Positions 3,462 to 12,325 of a stretch of 12,560 nucleotides of DNA are shown here, piece after piece. How positions within the stretch are numbered: the stretch's first letter is position 1; every line of letters begins with the position of its first letter. Below the pieces are notes generated by a model. That model did not search any database and had not been told where the DNA came from. It saw only the letters and a program-made list of their open reading frames with translations. A program made the translations under genes and the position numbers. Source of the stretch: Deltaproteobacteria bacterium (GTDB lineage Bacteria; Bdellovibrionota; JACOXK01); NCBI GenBank assembly GCA_016186995.1, contig JACPKQ010000004.1, positions 19,789-32,348 on the forward strand, read 5' to 3'.

Positions 3462-3860
3462 TTAGAATAGACTCACAGTTTTAAATTTTTCAGTCTTATA
3501 AGGCGTCATTGAAACAACAACACCTTGGTAGGTATCTAGAGAAACATTGTTTTCTAATCTTACTTTTTCGGAAACACATTCTGAGGTTAATTCTATTAAA
3601 CGTCTCATAGCATCACTACCTAAAAAGGCAATTTCTTGAACATCCTTATTGTGCAACACAGCAATGGTTTCCTTGCATTTGTTTTTAATGAGAAGATTAT
3701 TTTTATACATCCTGATAGAAAAATAGAAAAGACTTCTCAATCCTTCAAAAATGCCTCTATCCATTTTTCTCCATTTTGAAAAAGTATAAGAAAAAATTTT
3801 TGAGTGCACTTGTAAAAAAGTAAGCTTGAGTAAATAGGCATACACCTTTATAAATTTCAT
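3462..3860 (-). CDS. Small protein of unknown function with a Rossmann-like C-terminal segment
   Basis: The 132-residue product has a basic, aromatic, amphipathic N-terminal half (MKFIKVYAYLLKLTFLQ, then KWRKMDRGIFEGLRSLFYF). The C-terminal half contains QEIAFLGSDAMRRLIEL and then GVVVSM, resembling a beta-alpha-beta nucleotide-binding unit. By eye this aligns with IAFYGSNKLLTYFLEH and TVFVCE in the N-terminal part of the radical SAM protein at 4884-7025. I know no family for it. The ATG at 3860 is chosen over the in-frame TTG at 3896 because that TTG lies within a good -35 box and because the ATG lies 7 bases after the -10. The stop abuts the start of the downstream glycosyltransferase, so the two form a small operon. 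It may be a partial or reduced domain, since the Rossmann-like part ends after two strands. Confidence 0.65.
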   Translation of the reverse strand: MKFIKVYAYLLKLTFLQVHSKIFSYTFSKWRKMDRGIFEGLRSLFYFSIRMYKNNLLIKNKCKETIAVLHNKDVQEIAFLGSDAMRRLIELTSECVSEKVRLENNVSLDTYQGVVVSMTPYKTEKFKTVSLF

Positions 3861-3866
3861 CTTGCT

Positions 3867-3896
3867 ATTAAAGTATACTTTTATTATTATTGTCAA
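3867..3896 (-). promoter_or_regulatory. Minus-strand promoter, TTGACA-18-TTTAAT
   Basis: On the minus strand a perfect -35 TTGACA (3896-3891) is followed by an 18-bp spacer and TTTAAT (3872-3867). The first base of the ATG at 3860 is 7 bases past the -10, about where transcription would begin. The mRNA would therefore have almost no leader, in keeping with the lack of a clear Shine-Dalgarno. Confidence 0.55.
3870..3881. promoter_or_regulatory. 12-bp palindrome AAAGTATACTTT in the divergent promoter region
   Basis: A perfect dyad lies in the roughly 60-bp gap between divergent genes. It contains TATACT, a 5-of-6 match to the -10 consensus, on both strands. It overlaps the end of the minus-strand -10. 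It could be a shared operator or a pair of overlapping divergent -10 elements for the genes starting at 3860 and 3920. Confidence 0.35.
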
Positions 3897-3919
3897 AAAT
3901 ATTAAAGGGATTCAGCATC

Positions 3920-4897
3920 ATGCACAAACTTTCTGGGTACGGTCTAGGATATATATTTCTAGCCGTTTTTCTAGTCATTGCTTTTCTTCCCACAAATAAG
4001 TTGAGATTCAAAAAAGTTTCCAATATAAAATATTATTTAGGAGTTTTCTTTCTTCTTACTTCTTATATGACACCTGTCTTTTCTCGTGGCACTTGCCATT
4101 TATTTCTTGGTTTTGGGTGTATTCTCATATTCGATAGACTTACAGAAAAGTTTTATGGTAAATCGCTGTTACAAGAAATAAGTCAATCCTTCAAAAATAT
4201 ATTGATATTCTTTTTCATCTCAACCATCTCAGGTATTATTTTAGAATGTGGAGCTCAATGGCTCGGAAAAGTATGGTTTTATCCATATGCTGATATTTAT
4301 ACTTATTCTATTCTTTTTATACCCGGTTTTGCTATTTACTGGCTTATCGTTCTAGAAAGCTATGCAGCTCTTAAAGGGGTTCTCAATTATTTTCGAAATG
4401 ACAAAAAAAATATCTATAAAGAGCATGCATTTGAGCCTTTTTTACAAAAAACCCTAGGATTCCTAGGCATTATTCTTATACCCATTTCTATTTTTCTTAT
4501 TTTAAAAGACTATGCAGCATACGGCGGCTATTTTTTTTCACTCAATCAAAAAGCAGACTACCCAGTAAAGACATTCTTGCTTATGATGTTTTTTCTTGGC
4601 TTCTTGTTCCTATTTGAATTTATACTATATTTAAAGAAAACAGATTCTTTTTTAAAAGAAATGCTTCACTGTGATTTTGTATCACTTCTTGCCATTCTGC
4701 TTGCAGCTGCCATTATGGGGATTTTTATGGAAACCCATAATACAATGTATTATTATTGGGAATACTCACATTGGCCCCTTCAACATATAAAACTTTTCAA
4801 TGTACCCATTATAATACTCCTCGCCTGGCCCTTTCATTATTTTATTATTCTTTATCTATTTAGAATATTTTGGAAAAAAACTATTACAACTGTTTAA
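3920..4897 (+). CDS. Polytopic membrane protein with an internal duplication, family unrecognised
   Basis: The 325-residue product is mostly hydrophobic, with about eight to nine likely membrane helices (for example 8-22, 92-108, 126-146, 179-196, 216-237, 253-270 and 292-314). Two segments look like copies of one unit. Residues 105-148 read GIILECGAQWLGKVWFYPYA and end in a helix with P135 and W141. Residues 267-314 read GIFMETHNTMYYYWEYSHWP and end in a helix with P296 and W303. Each has a Glu near the end of one helix, a W-x-Y or WFYP motif, and a Pro/Trp-bearing helix next. I chose ATG 3920 for the AAAGGGA site at 3904-3910; an upstream TTG at 3890 is in frame but lies in the divergent promoter. 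The 3' end overlaps the convergent radical SAM gene by 14 bp. An intramembrane enzyme or a transporter of lipid or sugar intermediates is conceivable, but I cannot assign one. Confidence 0.8.
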   Translation: MHKLSGYGLGYIFLAVFLVIAFLPTNKLRFKKVSNIKYYLGVFFLLTSYMTPVFSRGTCHLFLGFGCILIFDRLTEKFYGKSLLQEISQSFKNILIFFFISTISGIILECGAQWLGKVWFYPYADIYTYSILFIPGFAIYWLIVLESYAALKGVLNYFRNDKKNIYKEHAFEPFLQKTLGFLGIILIPISIFLILKDYAAYGGYFFSLNQKADYPVKTFLLMMFFLGFLFLFEFILYLKKTDSFLKEMLHCDFVSLLAILLAAAIMGIFMETHNTMYYYWEYSHWPLQHIKLFNVPIIILLAWPFHYFIILYLFRIFWKKTITTV

Positions 4898-7025
4898 CAG
4901 TTTGAGAGCCTGTCATAGTATCAATAGTTCTATATTCATCGGTATTTTTAATATTGATTGTTTCAGGACGCGCGCTTCCACCGCTGTGGCCCACTTTTTT
5001 AACATCTTCGATAACTCTTCTAGCAAAAGCTCCTACATCAAACCCGCTTATTTCTAATGCTTCTACTACTCTTTGAAAACGATGCTGCCTTATAAGCCCA
5101 TCAATATAGGGATTTGTGCTATACCAAAGCTCATCCGGTATTCTAAAAGGGTTTTTCTTGTAAATTTCTGTTTTATCTCCTCGAAAAATAATATTATGCT
5201 TTTCAGGCTCTTCCCAATAAACACCCCCTACCGCCAAAATAAGAGTGTTGATATTGGCAATCCTTCCAATATAAGGTTTGCACTTAATTTTCATTTCTAT
5301 AGTTTCGTCAATATCTTCTTCCGTTTCTCCCGGAATTCCAATAACCGTATTCACCTCTGTATAAATTTCAGCATCATAACAATCTTTAAGTGTTTGAAAA
5401 ATTTTATCCTTGGTGTAGCCTTTTCTCTGCAATCGTAAGGTATTGTGAGACCATGCATCAACACCAAAACGCAAGGCCACAAAACCAGCGGCACGAAGTT
5501 TGTTAAAAAAAGCCCTATCATTTTTTTTGTGAATTCGTAATTGTCCTGTTAGTTTAATTTTAAGCCCTCGACGTATAATCTCATCACAAATTTCTAGTAA
5601 TAATTCAGGCCTGCCGTTTAAATCACTTTCATTAAACATAAATAGATCACAACCCTGGCTATGTAACCATTCAAACTCATCAACAACATTTTTAGCTGAT
5701 CGTGCTCTCCAAAAAAATCTTTCTGCACAAAAAGTACATTGAGACCAACGACATCCACGACTCGCAATAATAGGAGTTAAACGATAGTTGTTATAATTTG
5801 TATAAACTTTTAAATCAAACCATTCATATTGAGGCATTTCTAAAAGATCAAGATTTTGAGGTTGCGGACCTGGCCTATAAGGAACTTGAGGATTATCATA
5901 GCGTGATAAAACACCTGGCAAGTTAGCTGGCCTTTCACCCTGGAGAAGCCTCTTAACAAGAGGCCCTACAGTTAAATCTCCTTCCCCTATGACCATATAA
6001 TCACACTCAGAAAATGCCTGTAACCCAATAGAGACCTGATAACAACTATACCCTCCTACTAAAATAATGGTATCTGGTAGCAAAGCTTTAACTTTTTTAA
6101 CAACTGCTTTAGAAAAATTAATATTACATGCTTGAATAGATAATCCTAAAATTTTAGGCCGTGCTTTCACGAGCTTTTCAACGATTTCTTCAATCTCTTC
6201 TTGGAAAATTTTATAAACTTCAGGATCCTGCCAAAACTCAAAACTTTCTGCAAGCCAAGGATCATCAGGCATTTCTTTACCTGATGGAGTCAAGATTTTA
6301 CCACCTACATCAAACAAACGATGTATATGATAGCGGTGATAAACAATGACATCTAAATCGAATGTCTGAAATTGAATACCTATTTTTTTAAGTGCGTTAT
6401 GAACATATCCCAAACCATTAGGTAACCAAGCCATATTTCTCGCAGGACAATCAATAAGAATTAAGTCTTGATTGGGTAAAAAATCTATTTCAGGAAGGCC
6501 TATAGGATAAATACTATCGGGTTTTTTAAGCCATGCATTTTTTGGAATAATATTTTTACTTTTTAAACTTAAAAGAATTTCAGGTGAAATGACTTCAACA
6601 TCTTTGAAAGAAGCTAGTTTTTTCTTCATTTTTTGAAGAAAATAATACCTTCTTTCACACACAAAAACTGTTTTAACATCTTGAGGAATTTCAATAGTAT
6701 CTTTTTCATCAATAGTATAAGCGATCATCTCTCTAAACTGCGGAACATGTTCTAAAAAATAGGTTAATAGCTTATTTGAACCGTAAAAAGCTATACTACC
6801 TTTGAGTGATTTTTTCTTAAGGTATTTATAAAGAAGTTGAATGCATTGAATTTCTTGAACGTCACCATTTAGTGAAAAACACCTATAAAGACTCAACTTT
6901 TTTTCTTCGTGTTTAGATAATTGAAGGAAATACTTTCTTCTTAAACTATTAAGGTACCCTATTAAGGGAATTTTAAAAAAAAAACCCTTAAACCCAGTGG
7001 GTTGTGATCGATAATCTGTAGCCAC
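4884..7025 (-). CDS. B12-binding domain radical SAM protein with Rossmann-like N-terminal extension
   Basis: The product has 713 residues. Residues 1-180 form an unusual N-terminal part with a Rossmann-like unit (GSIAFYGSNKLLTYF, 76-90; TVFVCE, 119-124). Residues 186-360 resemble the B12-binding fold of this superfamily: LILIDCPA at the start, ILGLSIQACN near 292-301, ILVGGYS at 321-327, and VIGEGD at 345-350. The radical SAM core begins at 418 with the cluster motif RGCRWSQCTFC, cysteines 425, 430 and 433, a C-x4-C-x2-C spacing instead of C-x3-C-x2-C. It continues through FMFNESD (462-468) and VIGIPGETEED (561-571), typical of SAM-binding strands. Relatives are often methylases or make C-C and C-P bonds. 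It is the last gene of the long minus-strand operon, 51 bp after the pterin-binding-like gene, and possibly has its own promoter. The GTG at 7025 is the only start before an in-frame stop. Substrate unknown. Confidence 0.92.
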   Translation of the reverse strand: MATDYRSQPTGFKGFFFKIPLIGYLNSLRRKYFLQLSKHEEKKLSLYRCFSLNGDVQEIQCIQLLYKYLKKKSLKGSIAFYGSNKLLTYFLEHVPQFREMIAYTIDEKDTIEIPQDVKTVFVCERRYYFLQKMKKKLASFKDVEVISPEILLSLKSKNIIPKNAWLKKPDSIYPIGLPEIDFLPNQDLILIDCPARNMAWLPNGLGYVHNALKKIGIQFQTFDLDVIVYHRYHIHRLFDVGGKILTPSGKEMPDDPWLAESFEFWQDPEVYKIFQEEIEEIVEKLVKARPKILGLSIQACNINFSKAVVKKVKALLPDTIILVGGYSCYQVSIGLQAFSECDYMVIGEGDLTVGPLVKRLLQGERPANLPGVLSRYDNPQVPYRPGPQPQNLDLLEMPQYEWFDLKVYTNYNNYRLTPIIASRGCRWSQCTFCAERFFWRARSAKNVVDEFEWLHSQGCDLFMFNESDLNGRPELLLEICDEIIRRGLKIKLTGQLRIHKKNDRAFFNKLRAAGFVALRFGVDAWSHNTLRLQRKGYTKDKIFQTLKDCYDAEIYTEVNTVIGIPGETEEDIDETIEMKIKCKPYIGRIANINTLILAVGGVYWEEPEKHNIIFRGDKTEIYKKNPFRIPDELWYSTNPYIDGLIRQHRFQRVVEALEISGFDVGAFARRVIEDVKKVGHSGGSARPETINIKNTDEYRTIDTMTGSQTVKQL
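4888..4902. repeat. Near-palindrome AACTGTTTAACAGTT at the convergent stop codons
   Basis: Seven-base arms (AACTGTT and AACAGTT) flank a single T, spanning the ends of the membrane-protein gene and the radical SAM gene. The possible 5-bp hairpin has no T run after it on either strand, so it is at best a weak terminator. Confidence 0.25.
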
Positions 7026-7031
7026 CTTGCT

Positions 7032-7061
7032 ATGCTAGTGTAATCACAAACATTTTGTCAA
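7032..7061 (-). promoter_or_regulatory. Internal promoter candidate for the radical SAM gene, TTGACA-18-TAGCAT
   Basis: A perfect -35 TTGACA (7061-7056) and TAGCAT (7037-7032; 4 of 6) lie 18 bp apart in the 51-bp gap before the gene. The GTG at 7025 is 7 bases past the -10, the same geometry as the promoter at 3867-3896. It suggests a leaderless or near-leaderless transcript in addition to operon read-through. Confidence 0.45.
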
Positions 7062-7076
7062 ATATTTAGCTAGTAT

Positions 7077-7772
7077 TTAACATCTCAATGAAAAAAATAT
7101 TTCTTTCATTTTGCTGTTAGAGGGGTCAAAAATAGCAATATCTAAACCACTTTCTAAGACTTCTTTAAAAAAGGAAATTTCTTTTTCTTCATTTCCATCC
7201 ACTATATTTAAAAAAGAGGCTATTGTTCTGAATCCTTTTTCTTTTAAAAGAGATATCGTTTTTAATACATCTTCTTTATGTTGAGGATAGCTTTCTAATG
7301 AAGTTATTGCTGGATCTATTATAATACCCTCTTTAGGAAGCGAATATTTAGAAACTTTTTTTTCTAAATATTCTATAAGATTCTTCCTCTCATTCATGTT
7401 TTTTGGAAATATAGGTTCTATATTGTCCCCCTTCTGTCTTAAAAGAACGACGATAGCTGAGCAACACAGACCAATAAACGGGGCAAAATTATGGAGATTA
7501 TCATCCTCTAAATCTAGAGATTTAAGAATATACTCACCCGGTTGAACTTCTAAAATCTTTCCTAATAACTCTTTATTTTGAGAATTAATAATAAGAGGAA
7601 AGTTTTTAAGTGTTTCAACAGTTTGAAAACAAAAATCTTCTTGATTTCCTGGAAAAATATCTAGATCGGCATATAAAAAATCAGCACCATTTTTTAATTG
7701 AGGATGCTCTATAAAACTATCTTCATTGGTATAACTAACCGCTAATAGTGGCCCCTTTTTGTATAAAGTCAC
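7077..7772 (-). CDS. Pterin-binding TIM-barrel protein, methyltetrahydrofolate methyltransferase (AcsE/MeTr)-like, degenerate
   Basis: The 231-residue product follows, strand by strand, the layout of methyl-H4folate:corrinoid methyltransferases, which move a methyl group from methyl-H4folate to a corrinoid cobalt. GADFLYADLD (29-38) matches the early barrel strand. PLIINSQN (59-66) takes the place of the family's LDSTN. FAPFIGLCCSAIVVLLRQKG (96-115) matches the family's strand ending in LTMNKTG. Next come NERKNLIEYLEKKV (127-140), PKEGIIIDPA (146-155) and FLNIVDG (187-193), and GLDIAIFD (209-216) matches GLDAAIAD of AcsE. D153 and N189 fall where pterin-contacting residues lie in the family, but the first Asp is Asn (N63) and the INST asparagine appears to be lost (K84). 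It is shorter than AcsE (about 262). GTG starts one base after the stop of the upstream SDR, with GGAAG just before. Catalysis is uncertain; it may bind a pterin or another ligand. It may be a partner of the adjacent B12 radical SAM enzyme. Confidence 0.7.
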   Translation of the reverse strand: MTLYKKGPLLAVSYTNEDSFIEHPQLKNGADFLYADLDIFPGNQEDFCFQTVETLKNFPLIINSQNKELLGKILEVQPGEYILKSLDLEDDNLHNFAPFIGLCCSAIVVLLRQKGDNIEPIFPKNMNERKNLIEYLEKKVSKYSLPKEGIIIDPAITSLESYPQHKEDVLKTISLLKEKGFRTIASFLNIVDGNEEKEISFFKEVLESGLDIAIFDPSNSKMKEIFFSLRC

Positions 7773-7773
7773 T

Positions 7774-8727
7774 TTACTTCCAAAGTTCTGGATGTTCTTT
7801 CCACCACTGAATTGTTTTAAGCAACCCCTCTTCTAAAGTTATTCGTGGTTTCCACCCAAACTTTTCTCTTGCTTTTGTTGAGTCTCCAAATAAACGCTTT
7901 AACTCTTGTGATCTATTTTGATAATTCCAGATAGGATCAATATTTACTTTCATAAGTTTAGCAATCAGTTCATATAAATCTTTGATAACAACTTCATTTT
8001 GAGAGCTAAAGTGATAGACTTCACCTGAGTCACCCTGTTCAAGCGCCATAAGATAACCATTAACAATATCTTCTATATAACAATAATCCCTAGTTGGAAA
8101 AGAATTCCCCAATTTTGGAATTTCTCCACGCAATAAACATGAAATAACTTTAGGAATAAAATACTGCTCTCTTTGATAAGGCCCATACATGGCAAAAGAA
8201 CGTGTAAACACAATAGAGAAATTTTCACTGATAAGAGGCCTGATACAGAGCTCTGCTGAATATTTTGAGGCTGCATAAATATCTGTTGGACGAGGTGCCA
8301 AACTTTCTTTAATAGGCAAATCAACATTTGAATGATTACCGTAAATATGACAAGTGCTAATTTGAAGCATTTTTTTAACATGTGATTTCATAGCAGCATA
8401 AGCAACGTTGTGTGCACCTATAATATTAACTTGAAGGCAAGATTGGGGAGATTGCCTTGCCTCAATAACAGGAACAATAGCTGCAGGGTTAAAAACATAA
8501 TCAACCCCTTCTAAGGCAATGAGTAAACTTGTAATATCTGTAACATCCCCTGAATAAAGCGTAATTTTATCTTTAATTGTTGATAGGCTTGACAGGTTAC
8601 CCCCATTTTTAACAAAGGCTCTGATGCAGGCACCCTTTGCTAAAAGTGCATGACACAAATGAGAACCCGTAAACCCATGAGCCCCCGTCACTAAAACGGT
8701 TTTATTTTTCCAAAAAGTTGAGTGCAT
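7774..8727 (-). CDS. NAD-dependent epimerase/dehydratase (extended SDR), nucleotide-sugar type
   Basis: The 317-residue product shows the extended-SDR signature. TGAHGFTG (14-21) is the dinucleotide-binding turn, GDVTD (60-64) the adenine-side aspartate, PAAIVP (81-86) stands in for the usual HLAA, STCHIYG (124-130) carries the catalytic Ser/Thr, and YAASK (151-155) is an intact YxxxK. RSFAMYGPYQRE (176-187) and RDYCYIEDI (213-221) are typical nucleotide-sugar-binding stretches, and FGWKPRITLEEGL (290-302) is the usual C-terminal motif. It should oxidise and then epimerise or dehydrate an NDP-sugar; GDP-mannose or dTDP/CDP-glucose 4,6-dehydratase-like chemistry is possible, but the substrate cannot be named. 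The ATG at 8727 is preferred because GGAG lies 6 bases upstream and the Rossmann motif then begins about ten residues in. The frame is open to 8799, but that extension is a translated palindromic repeat. Confidence 0.9.
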   Translation of the reverse strand: MHSTFWKNKTVLVTGAHGFTGSHLCHALLAKGACIRAFVKNGGNLSSLSTIKDKITLYSGDVTDITSLLIALEGVDYVFNPAAIVPVIEARQSPQSCLQVNIIGAHNVAYAAMKSHVKKMLQISTCHIYGNHSNVDLPIKESLAPRPTDIYAASKYSAELCIRPLISENFSIVFTRSFAMYGPYQREQYFIPKVISCLLRGEIPKLGNSFPTRDYCYIEDIVNGYLMALEQGDSGEVYHFSSQNEVVIKDLYELIAKLMKVNIDPIWNYQNRSQELKRLFGDSTKAREKFGWKPRITLEEGLLKTIQWWKEHPELWK

Positions 8728-8733
8728 AGCCTT

Positions 8734-8737
8734 CTCC
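8734..8737 (-). promoter_or_regulatory. Shine-Dalgarno GGAG deciding the SDR start at 8727
   Basis: On the minus strand GGAG is followed by six bases and ATG. It lies between the start codon and the palindromic repeat at 8741-8792, and so argues against starting translation inside the repeat. Confidence 0.65.
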
Positions 8738-8740
8738 AAA

Positions 8741-8792
8741 ATCACCCTCTCCTTAAATCCTCTCCGCTTCAAGCGAGAGAGGAGGATTAGGA
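8741..8792. repeat. Imperfect palindromic intergenic repeat
   Basis: A left arm, CCCTCTCCTTAAATCCTCTC, and a right arm, GAGAGAGGAGGATTAGG, flank a small CGCTTCAAGCG centre. Several pairing registers are possible, including CGC/GCG, ATCCTC/GAGGAT and TCTC/GAGA. It resembles the short CCTCTCC/GGAGAGG dispersed repeats common between genes in proteobacteria. Translated in the SDR frame it gives the low-complexity peptide SRLKRRGFKERV, a common false N-terminal extension. Only one copy is in the window. It could form an mRNA hairpin before the SDR ribosome binding site. Confidence 0.6.
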
Positions 8793-8798
8793 AAAACA

Positions 8799-8933
8799 CT
8801 ACCTTTTAGACAAATATTGTAAAGAATAAAAATAACTGATGAGCGTAGAAGGGTCTTCGATTTCACTCTCAAAAACCATTTTTTTCATTTCTTCATGAGA
8901 AAACAAAGTAAACTTTAAAAAAAGGATTTTCAC
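8799..8933 (-). CDS. Possible 44-residue protein within the operon, unknown
   Basis: A GTG-started frame begins two bases after the TAA stop of the SDR at 8936-9895 and runs 44 codons to TAG just before the palindromic repeat. It reads MKILFLKFTLFSHEEMKKMV, then FESEIEDPSTLISYFYSLQY, ending LSKR. The mix of acidic, basic and aromatic residues looks protein-like rather than random A/T-rich sequence, and the frame nearly fills the gap between two SDR genes. No convincing Shine-Dalgarno is visible, and I recognise no family. It could be a real small protein, or the remnant of a larger gene cut short by the repeat. Confidence 0.4.
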   Translation of the reverse strand: MKILFLKFTLFSHEEMKKMVFESEIEDPSTLISYFYSLQYLSKR

Positions 8934-8935
8934 AC

Positions 8936-9895
8936 TTAAGGATGCGTTTCATAATTTTCACAATACCACTTAAGTGTTTTATCAATACCTTCTTCAAGTG
9001 ATACTTGTGGCTTCCACCCAAAAATTTCTTGAGCCTTATCACGATTAACACTTAAATTAAAAGGAAGTGTGGGTTTTGAACGATCGAAAACTAATTCAAC
9101 CTTACGCCCAGATTGTACTATCATTTTTTGAACTAAATCTTTAACAGAAACAGCTTTGCCACTTCCCACATTTACTAATTCAAATTTTTCTTTTTGATTT
9201 TTAAGCGCTAAAGAAATAAAATGTAAAAGATCATCAATATAAAGCAAATCTCTCTTTTCAGTTCCTTCACCCCACACGGTTATTTTTTTGTTCTGAGCTG
9301 TCATAACCTTTGTAACAGTGGCTCCAAAAACATGAGATTTTTCAAGATCAAACTTATCCCATGGGCCATAAATATTAGAATGCCTTATCACAGTAAATTT
9401 TGTGTCTGAAATTTGAGAATAGAACTCACACATTTTTTCTATATAAACTTTTGTCCAACCCACACCAAAATATTTTGGTGTAATGTTGCAATTAAAATCT
9501 TCTTCTAAAACAGGTTTTGACTGCGAAGGATACATCACCGTACAACTAAAAAATATAAAATGTTTTACTTTATGCTCAAAAGCAGAACGCAATAAAAGAG
9601 AATTCATAAGTGCGTTATCTGTTACATGAAAGTAAGGTTTATTCACTATTTCATTGGCCCCAGATGTTGTTGCAGCTGCCTGAATAATAATATCAATACC
9701 TTTTACAAGAAGATCCACCTCATGTGCTTTTGTCAGATCAGCTTTAATCCACTCTATTTGAGGATGGTTTTTTAAGTATTGTGGAGGAGTTGTTTTATGA
9801 TAAATAGCTTTAATCTTATATTCTTCGTTACTGATACAATGATTAACAATATTATGACCTATAAAACCTGTGGCACCACAAACTAATACTTTCAC
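8936..9895 (-). CDS. GDP-L-fucose synthase-like SDR lacking the canonical catalytic tyrosine
   Basis: The 319-residue extended SDR has CGATGFIG (6-13) at the NAD(P) turn, FSCTVMYP (116-123) matching the family's SSCxxYP loop, HSNIYGPWDKFDLEKSHV (172-189) resembling the NLYGPxDNFxPxxSHV stretch of GDP-L-fucose synthases, WGEGTEKRDLLYIDD (208-222), and FGWKPQVSLEEG (292-303). GDP-fucose synthase is a dual epimerase-reductase making GDP-6-deoxyhexoses. Around the active site the sequence is YFGVGWTK (142-149): K149 is kept, but the residue four before it is V145, so YxxxK is not intact and Y142 is too far away. The GTG start overlaps the stop of the glycosyltransferase gene at 9892-10584 by 4 nt. 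The substrate is unknown, and the missing tyrosine warns against a plain oxidoreductase assignment. Confidence 0.85.
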   Translation of the reverse strand: MKVLVCGATGFIGHNIVNHCISNEEYKIKAIYHKTTPPQYLKNHPQIEWIKADLTKAHEVDLLVKGIDIIIQAAATTSGANEIVNKPYFHVTDNALMNSLLLRSAFEHKVKHFIFFSCTVMYPSQSKPVLEEDFNCNITPKYFGVGWTKVYIEKMCEFYSQISDTKFTVIRHSNIYGPWDKFDLEKSHVFGATVTKVMTAQNKKITVWGEGTEKRDLLYIDDLLHFISLALKNQKEKFELVNVGSGKAVSVKDLVQKMIVQSGRKVELVFDRSKPTLPFNLSVNRDKAQEIFGWKPQVSLEEGIDKTLKWYCENYETHP

Positions 9896-10584
9896 TCTAC
9901 AACACTCACTTCTACTTTCTTTTTTGTTATAAACTCCATTGCAATCAGCTTTAAAATATCAAGCCCATTTAGGAAAGGATTCATCTTGCGCACTCCCCCA
10001 ATTCGAGAAGGCTCATCTCCTGGAATCTCAGTTACTTTCATTTTGTATTTTGCACAGCGAATAGAGCTTAAAGTTTCAAACCCTGCTCGAGGGACATTTT
10101 TTGGAAATTTTTGAATAATATCTTTTCTCCAAGCACGAAAAATCACAAGACTATCTGTGTATTTACCCCCAAACAAAATATTAATTATGTAAGTAAACAT
10201 CCAGTTCCCAAAAGCAGTAACCCACGAATCATCTTCACTTTGTGCCCCTTTTAAATAACGAGAAACAATAACCATATCATACCCTTCTTTCATTTTTTGA
10301 ATAAGAGAAGGTATCATTTCTGGCACCGAATTTCCATCTGGGCTAAAGGCAACAACGACATCACCTTGTGCTATTTGGATCACCTCTTCATAAGCACCTG
10401 TAATTCCCTTTGAAGTTTGATGATGCACTTTAAATCCTTGTTGTTTGGCATACTCCACTGTTCCATCTGTGGAACCCCCATCAACCAGAATAATTTCATC
10501 AAACCACTCTTTCTTAATTCGAGGAATAATGGCCTCCATCCCTTTTATTTCATTAAGTGTTGGTAAAAAAAGTGTTATCTTCAT
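9892..10584 (-). CDS. Family 2 glycosyltransferase, polyprenyl-phosphate mannosyltransferase (DPM1)-like
   Basis: The 230-residue product starts MKITLFLPTLNEIKGMEAI. It has VDGGSTDGT (34-42), the classic GT2 nucleotide-binding loop with D35, then GITGAYEEVIQIAQGD (60-75), the usual helix before the metal site. The metal site itself reads FSPDGNSVPE (80-89) where DPM1-type enzymes have DADxQHPPE, so only one of the usual acidic residues remains. SRYLKGAQSEDDS (108-120) and DSLVIFRAWRKD (144-155) follow the DPM1 pattern, and PGDEPSRIGGVRK (188-200) matches the conserved Arg-rich loop. There are no C-terminal membrane helices, as in soluble DPM1 and UDP-Glc:polyprenol types. It overlaps both neighbours by 4 nt, so it is co-translated with the SDRs and probably uses a sugar they make. 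Confidence 0.88.
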   Translation of the reverse strand: MKITLFLPTLNEIKGMEAIIPRIKKEWFDEIILVDGGSTDGTVEYAKQQGFKVHHQTSKGITGAYEEVIQIAQGDVVVAFSPDGNSVPEMIPSLIQKMKEGYDMVIVSRYLKGAQSEDDSWVTAFGNWMFTYIINILFGGKYTDSLVIFRAWRKDIIQKFPKNVPRAGFETLSSIRCAKYKMKVTEIPGDEPSRIGGVRKMNPFLNGLDILKLIAMEFITKKKVEVSVVE

Positions 10585-11345
10585 TGATTCTCAACAGTGT
10601 TAACAAACTGAGCAATAACTTCTTTTGAAGAACGATTGAGTGAAGGCAAAACCTGAGAAGCTTTATGATTATTAACACCCCCACCCTTATAAGTAAAAGA
10701 ACCAAACGAAGGCTTCTTGTGAAAAAGGCGCGCTATTTCACCTAAAGTAACATCATCGTTCGACACCACATTGTATAGTCCACTTAAATCCCTTTCAAGA
10801 GCCTTTTCTATAAAGTGCAACACATCTGAATAAAGAATGTAATTAAAAGTTGACTCTTTACTTAATGTTAAAGAAGGGTTTTCTTCTTTTATAATTTTTA
10901 CAAGACTATTAACTCGTGCTTCCAACCCAAGCAAAACAGAACAGCGTAATATTAAACAAGAAGGGGCTTCCTCTGAAACAATCTTTTCGCAAAAATATTT
11001 AGTCGTGGAATATAAAGTTGTGAGTGCTGTAACATCAATAGATTCAGTTTCTTTATGCAAACTTCCATTTTGAGGGTAAACATCAACTGTTGATATATAA
11101 ATAAATTTTTTATATTTTAATTGCGTCAATGCTTGGGTGAGAAAAAAAGTATCTTTTAAATATTGATATGCATTTTCAAAATCTATTTTTTTTTGTGTTG
11201 GAAAAGCACAATGGATAATAACATCAACTTTCTCATCTTTAATATCTTCTAACGGAGTCTCTCTATTAAAAGAAATCCCACCTAAATTTTTATAAAGATA
11301 AGCCCCTAAACCACTACCTGTCCCTGTAATAAGAAAAGAATTCAC
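10581..11345 (-). CDS. Short NAD-dependent epimerase/reductase (SDR, RmlD-like size)
   Basis: The 254-residue product starts MNSFLITGTGSGLGAYLYKN, with the turn GTGSGLG at 8-14. It continues through VDVIIHCAFPT (40-50), YISTVDVYPQNG (83-94) with the catalytic Ser/Thr, and an intact YSTTK (112-116). ILRCSVLLGLEARVNS (132-147), FNYILYSDVLHFI (167-179) and YNVVSNDDVTLGEI (191-204) correspond to the substrate-binding and C-terminal parts of nucleotide-sugar SDRs. It is shorter than its three paralogues in this operon (317-327), mainly in the C-terminal lobe, which suggests a simpler ketoreductase role, as in RmlD-type enzymes. The GTG start overlaps the stop of the upstream SDR by 4 nt, and its stop overlaps the glycosyltransferase ATG by 4 nt. 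Substrate not determinable. Confidence 0.83.
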   Translation of the reverse strand: MNSFLITGTGSGLGAYLYKNLGGISFNRETPLEDIKDEKVDVIIHCAFPTQKKIDFENAYQYLKDTFFLTQALTQLKYKKFIYISTVDVYPQNGSLHKETESIDVTALTTLYSTTKYFCEKIVSEEAPSCLILRCSVLLGLEARVNSLVKIIKEENPSLTLSKESTFNYILYSDVLHFIEKALERDLSGLYNVVSNDDVTLGEIARLFHKKPSFGSFTYKGGGVNNHKASQVLPSLNRSSKEVIAQFVNTVENQ

Positions 11346-12325
11346 ATTAATTTTTCGCTCGTAAAGACATTATATCGTTTACTCACAATACTAAGGTTTT
11401 CTTTATACCAAGACATCACTTCTTGAATGCCTTGTTCAATAGAAGTTTCTAATTTAAATCCAAGGACTTTCAATCGAGAGGTATCCATAACCCTTATTTT
11501 GTCTCCAGAAGGTTTCGAAGTATCCCATACAATTTTAGGTTTGTGCTTAAGGTTTTGAACTATGATCTCAACAATTTTTTTAATAGAAACACCCTCGCCA
11601 CTTCCTAAATTAAAACACCCACCGGGGGCTTTTTCCATAACGAGCATCATAGCCCTGGCTACATCACGCCCATGAATAAAATCCCTAATAGGGCTTCCAT
11701 CTCCCCAAATAGTCAGTGGATTTTCACCATCAAGTGCCCTTTTGATAAGAGACGGAATCACCATGGCATTGTGTGGATCAAAATTATCATAAACACCATA
11801 AACGTTGGCTGGTCTTACAATAGAAACCTTATCCCACCCATATTCAATTTTATAAGCTTCAATTTGTAACTCACCCATTCTCTTTGCCCAACCTGCAAAT
11901 CGATCATTTTGAGATGGAAAAGTTGTCCACACATCATCTTCATAAAAAACAGGCGCTGGAGAATACACACCCACGCTACTTGTGTATAAACAACGCTCCA
12001 CACTACACTGCCTAGCTGCTTCAAGAACATTTGTGTTAAAAGAAATAAGGGGAACAAAAAAACTGGCAGGTTTTTTTGAAGCCATTAAAGGCGAGCCCTT
12101 AATACCAGCTAAGTGAAATACATAATCAGCCCCATCACATACCTTCAGGCACTCTTCAAAACGTGTGAGGTTCACTTGATAAAATTCTGCTTCTGGGTGT
12201 GCTCGTGTTGGATCATCTAAAGAAGCAATGCGAACACGAGCACCCGCTTGAACTAACAACTCAACAAGATAGCGGCCAATCATGCCAGTACCACCTGTCA
12301 CAACTACTTTTTTATTTTGATACAT
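11342..12325 (-). CDS. GDP-L-fucose synthase-like SDR lacking the canonical catalytic tyrosine
   Basis: The 327-residue extended SDR is the first complete gene of the operon. TGGTGMIG (10-17) is the NAD(P) turn, FHLAGIKG (70-77) and TSSVGVYSPAP (115-125) are family loops, and RPANVYGVYDNFDP (171-184) with IWGDGSPIRDFIHGRD (206-221) matches GDP-fucose-synthase-like enzymes. NLGSGEGVSIKKI (239-251), WDTSKPSGDKIRVMD (267-281) and the FKLETSIEQGI end (290-300) complete the fold. The active-site lysine region is DRFAGWAK (141-148): K148 is present, but A144 occupies the place of the catalytic Tyr. The ATG at 12325 follows a GAGG Shine-Dalgarno (12332-12335) at six bases. Its stop overlaps the next gene by 4 nt. 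The residues after 310 form a tail not shared with its paralogues. Confidence 0.88.
   Translation of the reverse strand: MYQNKKVVVTGGTGMIGRYLVELLVQAGARVRIASLDDPTRAHPEAEFYQVNLTRFEECLKVCDGADYVFHLAGIKGSPLMASKKPASFFVPLISFNTNVLEAARQCSVERCLYTSSVGVYSPAPVFYEDDVWTTFPSQNDRFAGWAKRMGELQIEAYKIEYGWDKVSIVRPANVYGVYDNFDPHNAMVIPSLIKRALDGENPLTIWGDGSPIRDFIHGRDVARAMMLVMEKAPGGCFNLGSGEGVSIKKIVEIIVQNLKHKPKIVWDTSKPSGDKIRVMDTSRLKVLGFKLETSIEQGIQEVMSWYKENLSIVSKRYNVFTSEKLM

Follow-up and report, generated by a model that had tools for sequence, protein, structure and literature searches.

Gene content of the locus

The window analysed here, a stretch of 12,560 nucleotides, represents the end of contig C22 in a genome of 1.68 Mb that is 93% complete. 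From position 12325 downwards, its minus strand carries an extended short-chain dehydrogenase/reductase gene (SDR, 11342-12325), a second SDR gene (10581-11345), a family 2 glycosyltransferase gene (GT2, 9892-10584), an extended SDR gene of the GDP-fucose synthase/GalE-like type (8936-9895), an extended SDR gene of the sugar-nucleotide dehydratase/epimerase type (LegB/RmlB-like, 7774-8799), a gene for a divergent, standalone pterin barrel of MeTr/MetH type with 231 residues (7077-7772), and a gene for a B12-binding-type radical SAM protein of 713 residues (4884-7025). The two SDRs nearest to the contig end were assigned by Pfam, the glycosyltransferase and the other two SDRs by both Pfam and NCBIfam, the barrel from its sequence and fold prediction, and the radical SAM protein by Pfam and fold matches. 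The original prediction had placed the last two genes in a sugar operon, and the SDRs and GT2 of a glycan cluster are indeed found in the same minus-strand run. Above 12325, where the contig ends, no complete known gene was found. The barrel gene begins with a GTG codon, one base past the stop codon (TAA) of the SDR gene at 7774-8799, and the radical SAM gene starts 51 bp downstream of the barrel gene's stop codon. Promoter and terminator scans of the locus gave chance-level results only.

Two further ORFs, 3890-4897 on the plus strand and 3462-3896 on the minus strand, have no significant Pfam or NCBIfam match. The former is membrane-like and convergent with the radical SAM gene, whose 3' end it overlaps by 14 bases. 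A kinship of the latter with the N-terminal domain of the radical SAM protein, suggested by eye from an IAFxGS motif, received no support when the two were compared.

The host genome has a separate dihydropteroate synthase (DHPS) and a separate MetH; the Pterin_bind search found only those two and not the 231-residue protein. A RACo-type reductive activator was looked for in this genome and none was found. Its B12-binding domains occur in MetH, in a 145-residue protein and in two larger proteins, one of which is the radical SAM protein encoded at 4884-7025.

Fold and pterin site of the 231-residue protein

Sequence searches linked the 231-residue protein to the AcsE-like NCBIfam family PRK07535 (E 7e-15, below the curated cut-off) and to CODH_ACS_meth (E 2.5e-6, also well under the curated cut-off). 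It missed the NF005719 cut-off, reaching 54.9 of 259 bits, and matched Pfam Pterin_bind (PF00809) below threshold (E 0.051, 13.7 of 25.5 bits). Among PDB sequences, the best match was MetH of Thermotoga maritima (1q7m, E 1.3e-9), and an AcsE-type protein (2yci) was matched with an E-value of 1.6e-6. Given the E-values for PRK07535, CODH_ACS_meth, 1q7m and 2yci, the resemblance is far beyond chance. An AlphaFold model, whose alignment input contained ten fetched MeTr/MetH domains, reached a pLDDT of 76 and a pTM of 0.77, with residues 1-18 unreliable (pLDDT under 50). Its top fold match was again T. maritima MetH (Z 23.9, 2.2 Å over 221 residues), followed by AcsE (Z 23.0), whereas DHPS scored lower (Z about 17); the model is biased towards the MeTr/MetH fold by its alignment, and the matches found by sequence alone do not depend on it. 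Taken together, the sequence matches and the predicted structure show the protein to be a pterin-type TIM barrel of MeTr/core-MetH descent, as the strand order noted in the original prediction had indicated. A FastTree phylogeny placed it beside an AcsE-like protein of Scalindua (support 0.907), with a branch length of 2.6 substitutions per site; the placement is weak in view of the long branch and possible long-branch attraction.

The pterin site was compared by aligning the protein to AcsE (2e7f), from which the residue numbering was taken. In MeTr, the pterin is contacted by D75, N96, D160 and N199 (AcsE numbering). Across 47 comparator domains, consisting of AcsE-like proteins, core and classical MetH and one DHPS, no variation is seen at D75, N96 and D160, and hardly any at N199. 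In the 231-residue protein, the equivalent of D75 (Asp in 47/47 comparators) is Asn63, encoded by AAT at 7584-7586 of the minus strand, and the equivalent of N96 (Asn in 47/47) is Lys84 (7521-7523, minus strand). The equivalents of D160 and N199 are kept as Asp153 (7314-7316) and Asn189 (7206-7208), both on the same strand. The replacement of one pterin-contacting Asp by Asn and the loss of one Asn had been predicted correctly, and the erosion was even understated: of 37 positions that are nearly invariant in ten comparators, the protein retains 16 and has lost 21. The losses include the strand-2 D.N motif and the strand-1 GE..N motif; the latter, GE[RK]xN, has its G and E in 10/10 comparators and is missing from the 231-residue protein, in a region that is poorly modelled. 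The protein departs even from the DHPS among the aligned domains (L001), in which D, N and D are all retained. Having lost two of the four pterin contacts as well as the motifs of strands 1 and 2, the protein has, judging from its residues, most likely ceased to act as a methyl-H4folate:corrinoid methyltransferase. We regard it as a new variant within a known fold family, namely a standalone, divergent protein with the MeTr fold that is encoded in a glycan cluster and departs from MeTr at two of the four pterin contacts.

The radical SAM family and recurrence of the pairing

The 713-residue protein contains a B12-binding domain (PF02310, residues 275-353, 5967-6203, minus strand; E 1.2e-8, 35.3 bits) and a radical SAM core (PF04055, residues 419-577, 5295-5771, minus strand; E 3.4e-16, 60.3 bits), both above the Pfam gathering thresholds, and lies under every NCBIfam cut-off. 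With both domains present and a gap of only 51 bp, the barrel gene is confirmed to lie directly upstream of a cobalamin-type radical SAM gene. The cluster motif CRWSQCTFC (residues 425-433, 5727-5753, minus strand) has CX4CX2C spacing instead of the usual CX3CX2C. The protein also has an extra N-terminal alpha/beta domain and a C-terminus shorter than that of most relatives. Its model matches TsrM, AprD4, OxsB, TokK and CysS (Foldseek E-values from 6.6e-16 to 1.5e-11) and also MgmA. The substrate of the enzyme is probably a sugar, which it would either methylate or rearrange by other radical chemistry. In characterised B12 radical SAM methylases, the methyl group of methylcobalamin comes from SAM (PMC13331322; PMC12183590). 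If the 713-residue protein is a methylase, it would likewise make its own methylcobalamin from SAM.

Within the 368 genomes of its own phylum, close homologues were found only in Deltaproteobacteria bacterium RIFCSPHIGHO2_12_FULL_43_9 (G010), which has three tandem copies with 55-60% identity. A profile scan of genome contigs yielded 35 radical SAM loci, one of them (L029) on the G010 contig, spanning Deltaproteobacteria, Acidobacteria, Nitrospira, Alpha-, Beta- and Gammaproteobacteria, Planctomycetes and a cyanobacterium. Grouping of ORFs by similarity assigned 79 ORFs over 36 loci to the radical SAM proteins, L026 and L029 being loci on the same contig. The cluster motif could be located in 42 relatives (L026-L061), all 42 of which have CX4CX2C (SRGCRWSRCTFC) and none CX3CX2C; the remaining radical SAM ORFs of the 79 are mainly shorter relatives from these clusters. 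These loci look like glycan loci because their radical SAM genes neighbour SDRs, glycosyltransferases and ABC-exporter-like genes. The family is widespread, occurs in surface-glycan clusters and apparently has no name in NCBIfam.

Two additional features were observed in these clusters. A short repeated motif like GYNI(I/V)....FYAI.Q..G is shared by the C-terminal ends of radical SAM proteins, those of glycosyltransferases and free ORFs of about 170 residues (L026 591-1091 and 3237-3749; L027 5267-7903; L045 6879-8228 and 13398-15635). The ORF L026 591-1091 has no Pfam match, and the 713-residue protein of the window is devoid of such a tail. In several loci, TIR-like proteins of about 165 residues are encoded near the radical SAM gene (L040 1481-1993, L054 12506-13000), the former matching ThsB_TIR just under the cut-off (E 0.0011).

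Among ORFs of at least 90 residues, a standalone MeTr-like gene was found in 0 of the 35 other radical SAM loci, at least 4 kb being covered on both flanks in 25/35 and the others being cut nearer by contig ends. These loci were searched with the 231-residue protein (phmmer), with a profile including it and with a leave-one-out profile, and all three queries matched only the MetH of G010. The test had power for so divergent a protein, since the leave-one-out profile detected the 231-residue protein itself at 6.5e-14. The strongest PRK07535 matches in the 35 genomes are mostly MetH-size frames, with two exceptions of standalone size (365 residues in G395 and 265 in G391), neither of which lies in the fetched radical SAM flanks; DHPS-size frames account for a few weak ones (E 3e-7 to 5e-4). 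A search of about 1,050 distinct genomes, from its own phylum and samples of others, brought up no orthologue of the 231-residue protein and returned only MetH-size frames; very divergent orthologues may be missed by such a search, and some samples gave no match at all, which is weak evidence alone. Pattern scans of genome contigs, viral contigs and plasmids gave no matches or only methionine-synthase-like ones, and the open-access literature, queried with narrow search phrases, yielded no account of such a pairing. The pair of MeTr-like and radical SAM genes is real at this locus and is not a conserved module; the recurring adjacency expected of a dedicated remethylation and methylation unit, as the original prediction had envisaged, was not observed.

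The single matching neighbourhood (L026 7110-19877) has a core MetH gene 148 bp from the three tandem radical SAM copies, followed by a RACo gene and then an MTHFR gene (L026 18945-19877). Its pterin barrel is part of a full homocysteine-methyltransferase/pterin/B12 protein, and the neighbourhood is an ordinary methionine-synthase operon whose adjacency to radical SAM genes was seen in one genome only. We also considered an ancestral MetH-radical SAM arrangement shared with G010 and found no support for it, as the G010 MetH is among the weaker matches of the 231-residue protein (23% identity, E 0.0018). A link to methyl-folate may nevertheless exist, given that MetH, RACo and MTHFR genes stand beside the same radical SAM family.

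Interpretation and comparison with known systems

Our best explanation, with a probability of about 0.55, is that a self-sufficient glycan enzyme of the B12 radical SAM type lies next to a MeTr-fold protein that is restricted to this lineage and has been repurposed or is decaying. The conserved element is the downstream cobalamin-type radical SAM enzyme of surface-glycan clusters, whose substrate would be a sugar; were it a methylase, it would charge its cobalamin from SAM, as in its characterised relatives. The 231-residue barrel of MeTr/core-MetH descent would have been repurposed, or be decaying, within an operon-like run of genes. Three points speak against this explanation: the intact ORF with its kept D160 and N199 equivalents may allow some pterin-like binding; a start coupled to the SDR stop, together with the 51-bp gap, is consistent with co-expression; and the MetH, RACo and MTHFR genes beside the radical SAM copies of G010 may point to a link with methyl-folate.

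The probability of this explanation is split between two narrower versions, which a single sequence does not separate, selection not being measurable from it. In one, tentatively entertained here, the barrel is under selection, binds something new, such as a protein partner or a sugar nucleotide, and acts with the adjoining SDR. The intact ORF with its coupled start fits this version, as does a fold that is kept while the pterin site is changed at specific contacts, including a change of charge from N to K; however, the ligand is purely conjectural and no orthologue was found that would show purifying selection. In the other, rather unlikely version, the gene is the decaying, functionless remnant of a MetH or AcsE gene that had been acquired, in line with the missing strand-1 motif, a shortened N-terminus (first 18 residues with pLDDT under 50) and the loss of 21/37 near-invariant positions, but at odds with a frame that is open along its full length, a precise start beside the SDR stop and a C-terminal half that retains family residues. 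The reuse of the MeTr fold suggested in the original prediction fits the data, although a single sequence does not tell reuse from decay.

A dedicated remethylation module, in which the MeTr-like protein would charge the radical SAM cobalamin from methyl-H4folate and save one SAM per methylated sugar, appears improbable. The adjacency, order and shared direction of the genes, the MeTr fold, the kept D160 and N199 equivalents and the G010 MetH/RACo/MTHFR genes beside the same radical SAM family would all suit such a module. Against these stand the replaced D75 and N96 equivalents, a pairing missing from the 35 loci, a genome in which no RACo-type reductive activator was found, and the use of SAM by known enzymes (PMC13331322; PMC12183590). 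More improbable still is a folate-fed system in which a modified MeTr barrel replaces SAM by charging the radical SAM cobalamin from methyl-H4folate or another one-carbon carrier. If the barrel did methylate the cobalamin of its partner, this would represent SAM-independent recharging of this enzyme class. The evidence favours a one-off divergent barrel, and the firmer lead is the CX4CX2C radical SAM family, found in glycan clusters of several phyla.

Compared with AcsE/MeTr (2e7f, 1f6y), the 231-residue protein shares the barrel fold (Z 23) and the D160 and N199 equivalents but differs in D75 to N, N96 to K, the absence of the GERIN motif, a length shorter by about 30 residues and a score far under the curated cut-off of the family (54.9 of 259 bits). 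The core-type pterin domain of T. maritima MetH (1q7m) is its best match in both sequence (1.3e-9) and fold (Z 23.9), yet the 231-residue protein is standalone, without homocysteine or B12 modules, and shows the same residue losses relative to it. The MTHFR-RACo-core MetH operon of G010 likewise has a pterin barrel adjoining the same radical SAM family; in contrast, the product there is an entire methionine synthase that includes a B12 domain. The 713-residue protein shares its fold and its B12-binding and radical SAM domains with the cobalamin-dependent enzymes TsrM, TokK, OxsB and CysS, and its fold matches also include AprD4, a radical SAM sugar dehydratase. It differs from these enzymes in having a CX4CX2C motif and an extra N-terminal domain.
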